From Mesotoga sp. Brook.08.105.5.1 (GTDB lineage Bacteria > Thermotogota > Thermotogae > Petrotogales > Kosmotogaceae), in assembly GCF_002752635.1 (NCBI RefSeq), contig NZ_AYTW01000056.1, positions 1 to 64,000 on the forward strand: 64,000 nucleotides of DNA, written 5' to 3'. The notes under the pieces were generated by a model. It was not told the origin of the DNA, did not search any database, and saw only the letters and a list, made by a program, of their open reading frames with translations. Both the position numbers and the translations under genes were made by a program. This document shows, in pieces, positions 33,515 to 39,311 of the stretch; within the stretch, counting starts at the first letter, position 1, and each line of letters opens with the position of its first letter.

Positions 33515-34021
33515 TTGCCGGCTTGTGTGAGGGTTCTGGGAATTGATCCGGGTTTTGGTACTGTTGGATACGGTATTGTCGAGATGAGATCTTCAAGGAT
33601 CGAGCTTGTATCTTATGGGGCGATCAGGACCGAGCCTAATGAACCTATCCCTGACAGACTACTGAAGATCCACGATCAACTGGAAGTCCTGCTTCAGGAA
33701 TACGGACCCGATGAATCTGCAGTCGAGGAGCTATTCTTCTTCAGGAATGTCACGACTGCAATACAGGTTAGTGAAGCGAGAGGCGTTATTCTCCTCGCTA
33801 TGAGAAGACATGAAGTTCCCATATTCGAATACACTCCTCACCAGGTGAAACTTGCTGTCACAGGTTATGGCAGAGCGGAAAAGGGACAGGTACAAAGAAC
33901 TCTGAAGGCCTTTTTGCGGATGAAGGAAAACCCAAAGCCCGACGACGCCGCTGACGCCTTAGCTGTTGCATGGTGCCACCTTGCGGCGAGGAAGTTTCCC
34001 GGAGGTGTTCGAAAGGCATGA
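33515..34021 (+). CDS. ruvC: Holliday-junction resolvase RuvC
   Basis: Endonuclease that resolves Holliday junctions with RuvAB, 168 residues. The catalytic acidic residues lie in VLGIDPGFGTVGYGIVE, AVEELFFFRNVTTAIQVSEARG and the C-terminal DDAADALAVAWCH. The TTG start at 33515 is nine bases from GGAGG. Its stop overlaps the polC start (ATGA), so resolvase and polymerase are translationally coupled. Confidence 0.96.
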   Translation: MPACVRVLGIDPGFGTVGYGIVEMRSSRIELVSYGAIRTEPNEPIPDRLLKIHDQLEVLLQEYGPDESAVEELFFFRNVTTAIQVSEARGVILLAMRRHEVPIFEYTPHQVKLAVTGYGRAEKGQVQRTLKAFLRMKENPKPDDAADALAVAWCHLAARKFPGGVRKA

Positions 34022-37000
34022 AACTTTGTATGAAGAATCTTAAGCTCCCTATTTCGAGACTTCTTTCAAGAGTGTTGAAGTCCGATCCAGCCTTTGACTG
34101 TGGGGGTATTGAAATATCTGGAATAACTATTGACTGTGCATCAAGAGAGGTCTCGATCGATTTCTCTTGCGAGGTAAACGAAGACGTGAGACATTATCTA
34201 GAATCTACCTTTCGTGAAGAAGCGATGCGACTTCTCGGTTCTTCTGTTAGGCTTTCATTTGAACCTGGAGATTTTGAGACCGCAGGTGCAGAGAAAGAAG
34301 TTTCGAGGATAACTGAAGAGCAGTTCAGAGAGATACTCAAACTCACCAACGGCGCATCTTCATACCTTGCTTCTTCCGAAATGGTGTTCGAGAAGAATAG
34401 AATTCTGATCACTGTTCACGATCAGTTTTCATTTCAGAGAATCAGTTCAAAAAAGCACGATTTAAGAAAAGCGATCGAAAAGGTATGCGAGAGAACCATA
34501 CCATTTGATATAGTTCTAGATATCCGTGAGGACGAGGAGCTGACCGTTGACGAAGATTCCTCATATCCCGAAGTTGAAAGAGAGAGCAAGGTCTCTTCCG
34601 GTGAGGCTGATTTGGTTCTGATAGGAAGAGAAATAAGAGCTGTCTCAAAGAAAATGAAAGAGGTTCTTGGAAACGAGACCGATGTAGTGGTCAGTGGTAA
34701 GACCTTTGGACTGGAGTCGAGAAACGGAAAGCTCTTCATTCTTACGTTCAACATAACTGATTACACGGATTCTCTTACTGTAAAACTTATCGGTGAAAAT
34801 GCTCGTTCCCTCTCCGAAAAGCTCCGCGAAGGCGATGAGCTTACCATAAGAGGGAAGATGGAAACCGATACGTGGATTAAAGACGAGGTTCTGATTCCCA
34901 GAGATATCAACAGAACGACTCTTTCAAGGCGTGTTGACAATGCTCCCGAAAAGCGTGTGGAATTGCATCTGCATACCAAGATGAGTGCTTTGGACTCAGT
35001 TGTTGACGTCAAAGAGCTAGTGAACACTTTCAGAGAGTGGGGACATGACGCGGCTGCCGTGACTGATCATGGGGTAGTTCAGTCAGTGCCGGAGTTCTAC
35101 TTTGCAGCTAAGAAGAATGGAATCAAGCCTATTTTCGGTATGGAAGGTTACATGATAAACGATTCAGAGCAAATAACGATGAACATAGACGAAGACACCT
35201 CATCTCTAGATGAAGCTTTGTTCGTTGTCTTTGATCTCGAGACGACGGGTCTCAACCCAAAGGAAGATGAGATAATTGAGATCGGTGCGGTAAAGATGAG
35301 AGGCGGCGAAGTCATTGAGACATACTCATCTTTTATTAAGCCTGAAAGAGAACTCTCGTCTCTGATCTCTAGTTTGACGGGAATAACTGAAGACATGCTT
35401 TCCGATGCTCGTTCGATCAAAGAAGTGCTCCCCGAATTTGTAAAGTTCACTGAGGGAAGCATACTTGTTGCTCACAACTCCTCCTTTGACTACGGCTTCG
35501 TCCGCAACTCTGTTAAGAAACATTTCGGAGGAGATTGGGAGATGCCATGCGTCGATACGCTTGCCCTTGCAAAAAGCTTATTCAAATCCAAGAGCTATTC
35601 ACTAGATAACGTTGTGAAGCGCCTCAAACTTGGACATTTTGATCATCACAGGGCTTACGAGGACGCAAAGGTTACCGCCGAAGTCCTGAAGAAGTTCATT
35701 CAGCTGGCGGAAAAGAGAGGGATTCAGAGCGTTGGCGAGCTTGAAAAACTGAGAAAGAACCAAAATCTCGACTCTCTTAAGCCGGTTCATGTAAGTATGT
35801 TGGCCAAGAACAAGAAGGGTCTCGAAAATCTATACAGGTTGGTAACAGCCTCTCACACGAAGTACTTCTATATGAAGCCGAGGATTCCCAAGAGCCTATT
35901 AACTGATTTCAGAGATGGGCTTCTGATAGGTAGCGCTTGTGTCTCGGGTGAACTATCCAAAGCATTTATCGGTGGCGCTAGTACCGAAGAGCTGGAGGAA
36001 ATTGCGAAATTCTACGACTATATTGAGGTTATGCCACTAGACAATATTGACACTAGCGAGGGCGAGACCAATATGTCGAGAGACACATTGACCAAGATGT
36101 ACCGTGAGTTCTACAGAGTTGGCAAGAGACTGAACATTCCTGTAGTTATGACTGGGGATGTGCACTTTATAAATCCACATGATGACATTTATAGAGCCGC
36201 AATAAATGCTGCTCAGGATTACGATAACTTTCAGAACCAACCATCGTTGTATCTCCATACAACGGAGGAGATGATGAACAAAGCAGTCGATATTTTCGAA
36301 GACAAGGCTATTGCAAAGGAAGTGGTTATCGATAATTCAAGGTATATTTCCTCAATGATCGAGGAGGTGACTCCGATTGAGGGGAAGCTACACCCTCCAG
36401 TAATAGAAGGCGCAGAAGAAGAAGTAAGGAGAATGGCTCTTGAGAATGCCGAACGGTTGTATGGAAATCCTCTGCCGGAAATCGTCGAAAAGAGGCTCAG
36501 TCGTGAGCTTGACGCAATAATCGGTCATGGCTACGCGGTCTTGTATCTCATCGCTCAGAAAATGGTCGCAAAGTCCAATGAGGAAGGTTACGTGGTCGGT
36601 TCAAGGGGTTCAGTAGGAAGCTCCCTGGTGGCCAATGTAATCGGAATAACTGAGGTAAATCCGCTTCCACCACATTATCTCTGTTCCGAATGTGGCAAGT
36701 CGATCTTTCCTGAAACCGATCTCGAATCCGGTTATGATCTTCCTAGAATGGAATGCCCGGGTTGCGGGAATGAGATGGCAAAGAATGGCCAGAGCATTCC
36801 TTTTGAGACCTTCCTGGGATTTGAGGGGGACAAAGTGCCAGATATAGACCTGAACTTCTCTGGAGAGTACCAGGAACGGGCCCACGCCTTTATAGAAGAA
36901 CTGTTTGGCAGAGACCATGTATTCAGAGCAGGAACGATCTCTACTCTAGCTGAAAGAACGGCCTTTGGGTTCGTAAGGGCCTATTCTGAAAAGAGCGGTA

Positions 37001-38256
37001 GAACGCTTAGAAGGGCTGAACAGGAGCGAATTGCGCGTGGCATCGTAGGAGTAAAAAGAACAACTGGTCAGCATCCCGGTGGTCTTATGATCGTGCCGAA
37101 AGACATGGACGTTCATACTTTCACACCGGTTCAGCACCCCGCAAACGATACAAAGAGTTCAACGCTGACAACTCACTTCGCATATGAGGTAATTCATGAT
37201 GATCTGGTTAAGATAGACGCTCTAGGCCATGACGATCCTACGTTTATCAGGATGCTGAAGGACATAACTGGAGTTGATCCAGAAAGCATTCCAATGGATG
37301 ATACTGAGACTCTGGCGATCTTCTCTTCACTAAAACCTCTGGGAGTGAAATACCACGAGCTTGGAACCGACATGGGCACCCTGGGAATCCCCGAGTTCGG
37401 CACGACTTTTGTTCGGAGCATGCTTGCAGATACAAGACCCTCAAGTTTCGGCGAACTGGTAAGAATATCGGGTCTTTCCCATGGAACTGATGTGTGGTTG
37501 AATAACGCTAAGGACATCATTACTTCGAAACAAGCCTCACTTTCTCATGTTATAGCCTGTCGCGACGATATAATGAACTACCTGATTGCTAAGGGAATGG
37601 ATCCAAAGGAGGCCTTCAAGATCATGGAAAAGGTCAGAAAGGGAAAGGGTCTCAACAGGGACGATGAAGATAAAGTGAGATCAAGTGGCGCTCCCGAATG
37701 GTTCATCAACTCATGCAAGAAGATCAAGTATCTCTTTCCAAGAGCCCATGCCGCTGCATATGTTAGCATGGGATACAGAGTGGCGTATTTCAAAGTACAC
37801 TATCCCCTCGCCTTCTACAGCACCTATTTTTCAATTAAGGGTGGAGAGTTCGACATAGATATTTGTACATCGGACGTCAATACGATCAAGAAAGAGATTA
37901 TCAGACTTAGAGGTGATCAAGAAAGGAACGTCAAAGACAGGGCAAAAGAGACTCTCCTGGAGGTAGTGATGGAAATGTTACTCAGGGGATTTGGCTTCTT
38001 GAACGTCGACTTGATGAAATCGCATCCAACGAGATTCTTGATTGAAGGGAGATCGCTCAGAATACCTTTCAATAGGCTCCAAAACATGGGAGACAAGGCG
38101 GCGAGGTCTATTGAGCAGGAGAGAGAAAAAAGAGTATTCTCTTCAGTGGAGGATCTGATAAGAAGAACTGCTCTGAACAAGACCAGCGTTGAAATGCTCA
38201 GAAAGCACGGCGCTCTGAAGGGTCTTGCCGAGAAAGAACAGATCAGGCTGTTCTGA
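34018..38256 (+). CDS. polC: DNA polymerase III alpha subunit, PolC type
   Basis: Replicative DNA polymerase of 1412 residues. Order: N-terminal domain and OB fold (residues ~215-310), PHP domain start VELHLHTKMSALDS (near 317), inserted DEDDh proofreading exonuclease starting VVFDLETTGLNP (near 403), the rest of PHP, then the polymerase core with GSRGSVGSSLVAN, a four-cysteine zinc site (CSECGK...CPGCGN near 890-918) and the catalytic PDIDLNFSGEYQ (near 941). An internal exonuclease is the PolC hallmark. The C-terminus ends QIRLF, a match to the beta-clamp-binding motif QLxLF seen at PolC ends. The start ATG overlaps the ruvC stop. A clamp-like gene follows 8 bases downstream. Confidence 0.97.
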   Translation: MKLCMKNLKLPISRLLSRVLKSDPAFDCGGIEISGITIDCASREVSIDFSCEVNEDVRHYLESTFREEAMRLLGSSVRLSFEPGDFETAGAEKEVSRITEEQFREILKLTNGASSYLASSEMVFEKNRILITVHDQFSFQRISSKKHDLRKAIEKVCERTIPFDIVLDIREDEELTVDEDSSYPEVERESKVSSGEADLVLIGREIRAVSKKMKEVLGNETDVVVSGKTFGLESRNGKLFILTFNITDYTDSLTVKLIGENARSLSEKLREGDELTIRGKMETDTWIKDEVLIPRDINRTTLSRRVDNAPEKRVELHLHTKMSALDSVVDVKELVNTFREWGHDAAAVTDHGVVQSVPEFYFAAKKNGIKPIFGMEGYMINDSEQITMNIDEDTSSLDEALFVVFDLETTGLNPKEDEIIEIGAVKMRGGEVIETYSSFIKPERELSSLISSLTGITEDMLSDARSIKEVLPEFVKFTEGSILVAHNSSFDYGFVRNSVKKHFGGDWEMPCVDTLALAKSLFKSKSYSLDNVVKRLKLGHFDHHRAYEDAKVTAEVLKKFIQLAEKRGIQSVGELEKLRKNQNLDSLKPVHVSMLAKNKKGLENLYRLVTASHTKYFYMKPRIPKSLLTDFRDGLLIGSACVSGELSKAFIGGASTEELEEIAKFYDYIEVMPLDNIDTSEGETNMSRDTLTKMYREFYRVGKRLNIPVVMTGDVHFINPHDDIYRAAINAAQDYDNFQNQPSLYLHTTEEMMNKAVDIFEDKAIAKEVVIDNSRYISSMIEEVTPIEGKLHPPVIEGAEEEVRRMALENAERLYGNPLPEIVEKRLSRELDAIIGHGYAVLYLIAQKMVAKSNEEGYVVGSRGSVGSSLVANVIGITEVNPLPPHYLCSECGKSIFPETDLESGYDLPRMECPGCGNEMAKNGQSIPFETFLGFEGDKVPDIDLNFSGEYQERAHAFIEELFGRDHVFRAGTISTLAERTAFGFVRAYSEKSGRTLRRAEQERIARGIVGVKRTTGQHPGGLMIVPKDMDVHTFTPVQHPANDTKSSTLTTHFAYEVIHDDLVKIDALGHDDPTFIRMLKDITGVDPESIPMDDTETLAIFSSLKPLGVKYHELGTDMGTLGIPEFGTTFVRSMLADTRPSSFGELVRISGLSHGTDVWLNNAKDIITSKQASLSHVIACRDDIMNYLIAKGMDPKEAFKIMEKVRKGKGLNRDDEDKVRSSGAPEWFINSCKKIKYLFPRAHAAAYVSMGYRVAYFKVHYPLAFYSTYFSIKGGEFDIDICTSDVNTIKKEIIRLRGDQERNVKDRAKETLLEVVMEMLLRGFGFLNVDLMKSHPTRFLIEGRSLRIPFNRLQNMGDKAARSIEQEREKRVFSSVEDLIRRTALNKTSVEMLRKHGALKGLAEKEQIRLF

Positions 38257-38264
38257 GGGAAGAA

Positions 38265-39311
38265 ATGAATTTCCAGTTGGCTTCTTCCGATTTTGCAAAG
38301 TTGATCGATCTCTTTGGAAGAGTTTCGGGGTCCGTTGAGCCTTCTTTCCGCTATTTCCAGATCTATTACAGGAGGGGATTGAAGTTCTTCGCGACCGATG
38401 GTTGTATGAAGCTTGAGTTTTCTTCCGGGCTTCCAATCACGCCTTTCACCGGAGTATTCTCGATACCGATTGACTACGCCAGGGTTCTCAAGAGCTCTGA
38501 CGAGGAGTCAAACATAATCTTCTCCTCAGACGGAGACAACATTGAAATCAGAACAGATTCAGAAGTGCTCACATTGCAGAAGGCTCGAGGCGAGAACATT
38601 CCTTCGATGGAGAGGAAGTTCGAGTACTCCTCTCGCTTTCTTTTGAAGGAATTCAACGAATCTCTGGATTTCATATCTGCAGCTTCACAGGAAGGAGATA
38701 CTATCGAGATTTTTTCCAAAGGAAGTGAAACTGTACTCGCTGCTTCTGCAGGTAGAGCAATCCTTCTCTCAATGCTTAGAAACGAACCAAGAACAGACTT
38801 TCATTTTTCTTTACAGTACGTGACCACAAGGCATCTTGTTAAGTCTTTGGAGTTGTTGTCGACGAAAGAGCTCGATGCGGGTACAGGTATTTCCGAGCTC
38901 GGATTAAAGGCGGGACCTCTGCTTTTCTCCATATGCACCGACGAGACTGGTTTTCCCGTACCGCCTGCGTTTCTTTTCAAAGAAGTCGAAGGAGGAGTCG
39001 GGGTACAGAAGAGGGCTCTTCTGTCGGCTTTGAGAAAGATTGTCAGACTTTCCAAACAAGGCTTCTCCATTCTGATGATCTCAGATAAGAAAAGGATCAG
39101 ATTCTTTCTGAAAGCAGGAAGTCTTCGATATGAGTGTGAGATCGGGAAATTTGACGGTGAGGAGTTTGCCGTTCAAGTCGACCCCAGGAAGCTCCAGTCT
39201 GTTCTTTCGAGAATGAGTAACTCTACGATTTACCTTTTGATAAGAGACGATTACCTTCTAATGGTTGACAAGAAGAGCAGGATGCATCTGTTTGTTCCCG
39301 TCATAAAGTGA
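38265..39311 (+). CDS. Divergent DNA sliding-clamp-like (DnaN-fold) protein
   Basis: Protein of 348 residues directly after polC, ATG with GAGGGA before it. Three successive domains can be followed with the pattern of the beta clamp. Domain 1 starts MNFQLASSDFAKLIDLFGRV, has KFFATDGCMKLEFS (the DnaN ATDL-like spot) and ends GENIPSM. Domain 2 starts FLLKEFNESLDFISAAS. Domain 3 starts GVQKRALLSALRKIVRLS and ends with DPRKLQSVLSRM (DnaN NPkYLlD-L) and YLLMVDKKSRMHLFVPVIK (DnaN y-lMPvr). Overall length is near that of DnaN (about 366). Identity to ordinary clamps is clearly low, so a paralogue with a special role is more likely than the housekeeping clamp. Confidence 0.65.
   Translation: MNFQLASSDFAKLIDLFGRVSGSVEPSFRYFQIYYRRGLKFFATDGCMKLEFSSGLPITPFTGVFSIPIDYARVLKSSDEESNIIFSSDGDNIEIRTDSEVLTLQKARGENIPSMERKFEYSSRFLLKEFNESLDFISAASQEGDTIEIFSKGSETVLAASAGRAILLSMLRNEPRTDFHFSLQYVTTRHLVKSLELLSTKELDAGTGISELGLKAGPLLFSICTDETGFPVPPAFLFKEVEGGVGVQKRALLSALRKIVRLSKQGFSILMISDKKRIRFFLKAGSLRYECEIGKFDGEEFAVQVDPRKLQSVLSRMSNSTIYLLIRDDYLLMVDKKSRMHLFVPVIK

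Follow-up and report, generated by a model that had tools for sequence, protein, structure and literature searches.

Beside its ordinary DnaN sliding clamp, Mesotoga sp. Brook.08.105.5.1 encodes a second protein, here called clampB, which on the evidence of family-level comparisons genuinely belongs to the bacterial beta-clamp superfamily, though it is very divergent, and is homologous to DnaN across three domains. Its gene lies in the window, by which we mean the whole 64,000-nucleotide stretch of DNA that was analysed, in a cluster with ruvC and polC (Table 1). The source genome comprises 2.99 Mb in 61 contigs; among named relatives the nearest, at 75% identity, is Mesotoga sp. WOFB36.

Clamp homology of clampB and its genomic setting

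The first-pass annotation had described a 348-residue protein, 8 bases after polC, with three domains in beta-clamp order. That open reading frame is confirmed, as is its spacing: the polC stop codon (38254-38256) is followed by 8 bases and then the clampB ATG. The sequence elements singled out at the same time are also present, namely an ATDG element in domain 1 (residues 43-46), the DPRKLQSVLSRM helix (residues 306-317), a VPVIK C-terminal end of clampB and a QIRLF end of polC. The spacer sequence makes co-translation of polC and clampB likely. Further upstream, the earliest possible polC start (33970) overlaps ruvC by 52 bases, and the true start is probably a methionine 48 or 60 bases downstream of it. 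Homologues of clampB share the start methionine of the window protein, and between two close genomes of the genus (G028 and G029) omega is about 0.07 for clampB and 0.02 for DnaN. From the shared start and the low omega it follows that the clampB gene is real and under purifying selection.

Taken alone, the window protein gives no significant match to the PDB (phmmer) or to Pfam and NCBIfam (hmmscan), and none to a Pfam clamp model. Members of the family fall below the Pfam and NCBIfam DnaN cut-offs, with TIGR00663 reaching E <= 0.01 in only 2 of 44 (best 9.8e-6). A profile of the 44 members has the T. maritima beta clamp as its best PDB match (1VPK, E 8.9e-8, 1-326 on 13-352); the significant matches in that search are beta clamps only, and unrelated proteins appear only below significance. 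When a 60-member HMM was run against 2050 ORFs from the fetched loci, canonical DnaN proteins were the sole matches outside the family, down to E 6e-17, and in the reciprocal search a DnaN HMM recovered clampB members (best E 7e-8). The two families align over their full length in hhalign (1-347 on 1-365, probability 98.5, E 1.5e-15). The internal repeat is visible in a second hhalign alignment (E 4.7e-7), in which 21-208 pairs with 145-341, an offset of one domain. Given these family-profile, HMM and hhalign matches to DnaN, the clamp-like domain order is not due to chance. An AlphaFold prediction with two-sequence input only (the window protein and the homologue at L032) was poor, with a pLDDT of 38, and does not enter the interpretation.

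An ordinary dnaN lies elsewhere in the source genome (G000, C5:192300-192656, E 6e-24). clampB is thus a paralogue and not the housekeeping clamp, as the first-pass annotation had proposed in calling it a paralogous or specialised clamp, and the genome-wide search establishes that it is not the only dnaN. Across the phylum, dnaN was found in 99 of 103 Thermotogota genomes. Within one genome clampB and DnaN are about 21% identical; between the Mesotoga genome and T. maritima, clampB is 22% identical and DnaN 44%.

Two further observations concern the clamp machinery. One genome (G083) carries, besides its normal DnaN and clampB, an extra, more divergent and recognisable DnaN (C23:20568-21593; L039:751-1845). 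The Pfam clamp-loader delta model PF06144 matches nothing in the source genome, though it matches T. maritima, a silence probably due to divergence.

Table 1. Coordinates and features of the clampB locus, with the second PolC loci of other genomes
Feature	Position	Strand	Remarks
ruvC, first gene of the ruvC-polC-clampB cluster	33515..34021	+	PF02075 E 5.8e-50
polC	33970..38256	+	NF001688 1701 bits; C-terminal ...EKEQIRLF
polC stop and 8-base spacer	38254..38264	+	GAGGGA Shine-Dalgarno-like stretch, overlaps polC stop
clampB gene, divergent beta-clamp-fold paralogue	38265..39311	+	ATG start, 348 aa, pI 8.3
Domain 1, residues 1-117	38265..38615	+	hhalign mapping on E. coli DnaN, approximate boundary
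Loop G22-x-x-E25-P26-x-x-R29, after first inner helix of domain 1	38328..38351	+	P 47/60, R 49/60
D45-G46-C47, clampB domain-1 signature	38397..38405	+	
Domain 2, residues 118-242	38616..38990	+	hhalign mapping on E. coli DnaN, approximate
(P)Y-x-x-x-R189-H190-L-V-K193, basic inner helix of domain 2	38814..38843	+	
C224, last strand of domain 2	38934..38936	+	C 57/60
Domain 3, residues 243-348	38991..39308	+	hhalign mapping on E. coli DnaN, approximate
DPRKLQSVLSRM, inner helix of domain 3	39180..39215	+	contains R316
Second PolC	L106:3982-7050	-	
Second PolC	L107:3656-6730	+	
Second PolC	L108:3936-6830	-	

Conserved residues, charge and the peptide cleft

We mapped 60 clampB and 31 DnaN sequences on E. 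coli DnaN, a comparison at low identity in which single positions are approximate. The clampB family has a near-invariant set of its own: G22 (60/60), E25 (59/60), D45 (58/60), G46 and C47 (56/60 each), E143 (57/60), R189 (60/60), H190 (57/60), K193 (60/60), C224 (57/60) and R316 (57/60). Residue 184, at the start of the basic helix of domain 2, is Q in the window protein and P in 54 of the 60.

The canonical QxxLF-binding cleft was examined as E. coli loop 152-155, T172-L177, P242 and M362-R365. D173, R176, P242, M362 and R365, all invariant in the 31 DnaN, are variable or replaced among the 60 clampB, and the equivalent of loop 152-155 is a gap in the clampB alignment. As judged from these alignments, the canonical cleft is not preserved in clampB. 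Under the one-domain shift, ATDGC in domain 1 of clampB pairs with ATDGH in domain 2 of E. coli DnaN (T172-D173-G174-H175); the TDG motif belongs to domain 2 and the peptide cleft in DnaN, whereas in clampB it sits in domain 1. By the pseudo-symmetry of the clamp fold, C224 would lie opposite C47 at the domain 1/2 junction. In the three sequences of family f11, which form one clade, both cysteines are replaced, perhaps in a single event.

The two families also differ in charge, with a median pI of 8.90 for clampB and 4.79 for DnaN. clampB is basic chiefly through two inner helices of domain 3, whose mean net charges are +2.85 and, in the DPRKLQSVLSRM helix, +3.0 across the family, against +1.29 and 0.0 in DnaN. 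At the dimer edges, the DnaN charges (K/R103 and R105 in domain 1; D298, E301 and E304 in domain 3) are lost, and the salt-bridge pattern is partly reversed: position 100 of clampB is acidic in 67% of sequences (E100) and position 288 basic in 42% (R/K288). Hydrophobic edge positions are kept, with L102 (54/60) in place of DnaN F106.

Distribution, descent and linkage to polC

The family profile detects clampB in 98 of 103 Thermotogota genomes, and single-sequence search in 96. The five without a profile match are G003 and G004, the sole genomes of their genus; G086 and G087, likewise the sole genomes of theirs; and G064, where the absence may be a gap, as genus-mates have the gene. Being undetectable in two two-genome genera and one further genome, clampB is not strictly essential in the phylum. 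It was not found in 287 sampled genomes outside Thermotogota, and phages, plasmids and viral contigs gave no match in single-sequence searches (tblastn for phages and plasmids), which are insensitive. In one genome (G058, L098:5053-6601) clampB is broken into two ORFs that overlap, likely through a frameshift or sequencing error.

The clampB tree follows taxonomy: of the eight taxonomic families represented by several rows, seven form single clades and one, f10, is split in two. This topology fits an old gene passed down vertically from an ancestor early in the history of Thermotogota. When Thermotogota DnaN and 14 other DnaN are included in the tree, clampB forms a separate long-branch clade (support 100/100) outside all sampled DnaN, and the length of that branch, as reconstructed, is too great to separate a pre-phylum origin from fast divergence. 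Between the window gene and its close relatives, dN is 0.17 for clampB and 0.05 for DnaN, about a threefold difference.

Among the sampled genomes, the ruvC-polC-clampB order is confined to Petrotogales. There, 30 of 38 genomes have clampB immediately after polC; no genome of another family does. In the window's family 16 of 17 genomes show the linkage, the remaining one being split over contigs; in the sister family 14 of 21 show it, and the exceptions make up genus g9. In those 30 genomes clampB stands third in the cluster, in the same direction and at a distance of about 7-14 bases. The ruvC-polC pair is also present in several families without the polC-clampB linkage, which is a Petrotogales trait. 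The neighbours of clampB vary by family and include alaS and hslO (T. maritima), ddl and topA, ychF, tsaD, ispG and dprA; a comparison of neighbour genes between families found no conserved neighbour across the phylum that points to a pathway.

The DNA polymerases of the phylum offered two side observations. Several genomes of family f2 (genera g7, g8, g11 and g13) encode a second PolC of about 965-1025 residues (Table 1), which has lost its N-terminal region and, from the PHP domain, the DEDDh exonuclease insert, and keeps the PDIDxNFS polymerase motif; among the three examined, the QxxLF tail occurs in L107 only. By its sequence, this could be an exonuclease-less, error-prone PolC. At L103, the open frame that holds the genome's sole DnaE is only 908 aa long. 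A replicative DnaE would be expected to be longer, which fits PolC as the main replicase.

Possible roles of clampB and comparison with known clamps

The best overall explanation, to which we give an even chance, is that clampB may act beside DnaN as an accessory clamp that encircles DNA and has partners of its own. From the alignments we infer ring formation, DNA encirclement, a relocated pocket and orthogonal homodimerisation. The protein would fold into a three-domain half-ring, probably a homodimer insulated from DnaN, and would surround or cradle duplex DNA through its basic inner helices (R189, H190 and K193 in domain 2; R316 and the domain 3 helices). QxxLF-type peptides would not dock in the usual domain 2/3 pocket. 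D45-G46-C47 and C224 would probably line a pseudo-equivalent domain 1/2 pocket, where a different partner would dock. Such a protein could work alongside the general DnaN as an accessory clamp dedicated to repair, to recombination or to one task within the replisome, and in Petrotogales it is probably produced together with PolC. Sequence alignment at about 21% identity is the basis for the proposed ring, dimer and domain 1/2 pocket. We put forward tentatively, and with well under an even chance, the wider reading that two non-interchangeable clamps have existed since the Thermotogota common ancestor: DnaN for QxxLF partners, and a basic clampB ring with a domain 1/2 docking pocket for separate partners.

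The location of the gene suggests another role, as a clamp or clamp-like subunit used by PolC itself while DnaN serves DnaE and repair; a PolC processivity partner was also one of the options offered by the first-pass annotation. The co-directional cluster in 30 Petrotogales genomes speaks for this role, as does the clamp-binding-like motif that terminates every PolC tail. However, clampB is unlinked in all sampled genomes outside Petrotogales and in genus g9, its canonical, tail-binding cleft is not conserved, and a DnaN with an intact cleft is present. The QxxLF-type PolC tail is kept across the phylum, including the five genomes in which clampB was not found, and so cannot be used as evidence for a clampB partnership. 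We consider the role unlikely; for Petrotogales a PolC partnership is possible and not favoured.

It is also improbable, in our estimate, that clampB is a clamp-derived, non-ring DNA-binding or structural factor, monomeric or otherwise assembled. Its high pI would be compatible with a static DNA-binding protein too, and the basic domain 3 helices, the loss of canonical dimer-edge charges and cleft, and protein evolution about three times faster than that of DnaN all agree with such a factor. Yet the three domains and their order are retained phylum-wide, and L102 and the alternate charged edge positions remain, as expected for a kept interface. That clampB and DnaN coexist in nearly all genomes and have a common fold by homology would suit a modulator of DnaN, the other option of the first-pass annotation, which would regulate loading or unloading either as the partner of a single DnaN subunit or by taking up the clamp loader. 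If the alignment is right, however, E100 and R288 of clampB would repel the DnaN edge charges, and we regard this role as very unlikely.

In T. maritima, clampB (C1:1409401-1410438 of G090, which we take to be strain MSB8) is flanked by alaS and hslO and is presumably TM1395. In the literature searched, subscription papers being outside its coverage, we found no paper on a second clamp in Thermotoga and no mention of TM1395. With clampB, a standard organism of structural biology gains an uncharacterised candidate replication or repair factor that is directly expressible and open to testing.

Among known systems, clampB is closest to DnaN (TIGR00663; PF00712/PF02767/PF02768; for example 1VPK), with which it shares three tandem domains end to end and basic inner helices. 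It differs from DnaN in its low identity, its basic rather than acidic character, the loss of cleft and interface charges, and invariant residues of its own. Bacillus likewise has a second beta clamp, DnaN-2, which shares about 40% similarity with DnaN-1 and is able to take part in replication (review, PMC3290774). clampB, in contrast, is far more divergent, is without the canonical cleft and occurs phylum-wide. Descent from a phage clamp was considered and rejected: 18 of 44 clampB members match phrog_947, a phage DNA polymerase processivity factor (best E 4.7e-8), but the matches of Thermotogota DnaN to it are much stronger (1e-66 to 1e-78), so the clampB match reflects general clamp homology.

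The textbook bacterium has a single clamp, whose one pocket is promiscuous. That nearly all members of a phylum have a second clamp-fold protein, its pocket dismantled and with conserved residues of its own, suggests a possible division of clamp duties in bacteria as well. PCNA and the 9-1-1 subunits have two domains and form trimers, unlike clampB, which by alignment has three domains; an archaeal PCNA profile gave one weak, non-significant match to the window protein (E 0.016). The likeness lies in the arrangement, in which the replicative clamp is accompanied by a specialised one that has other partners, and if the two-clamp reading is true, Thermotogota would hold a bacterial counterpart to PCNA and 9-1-1.
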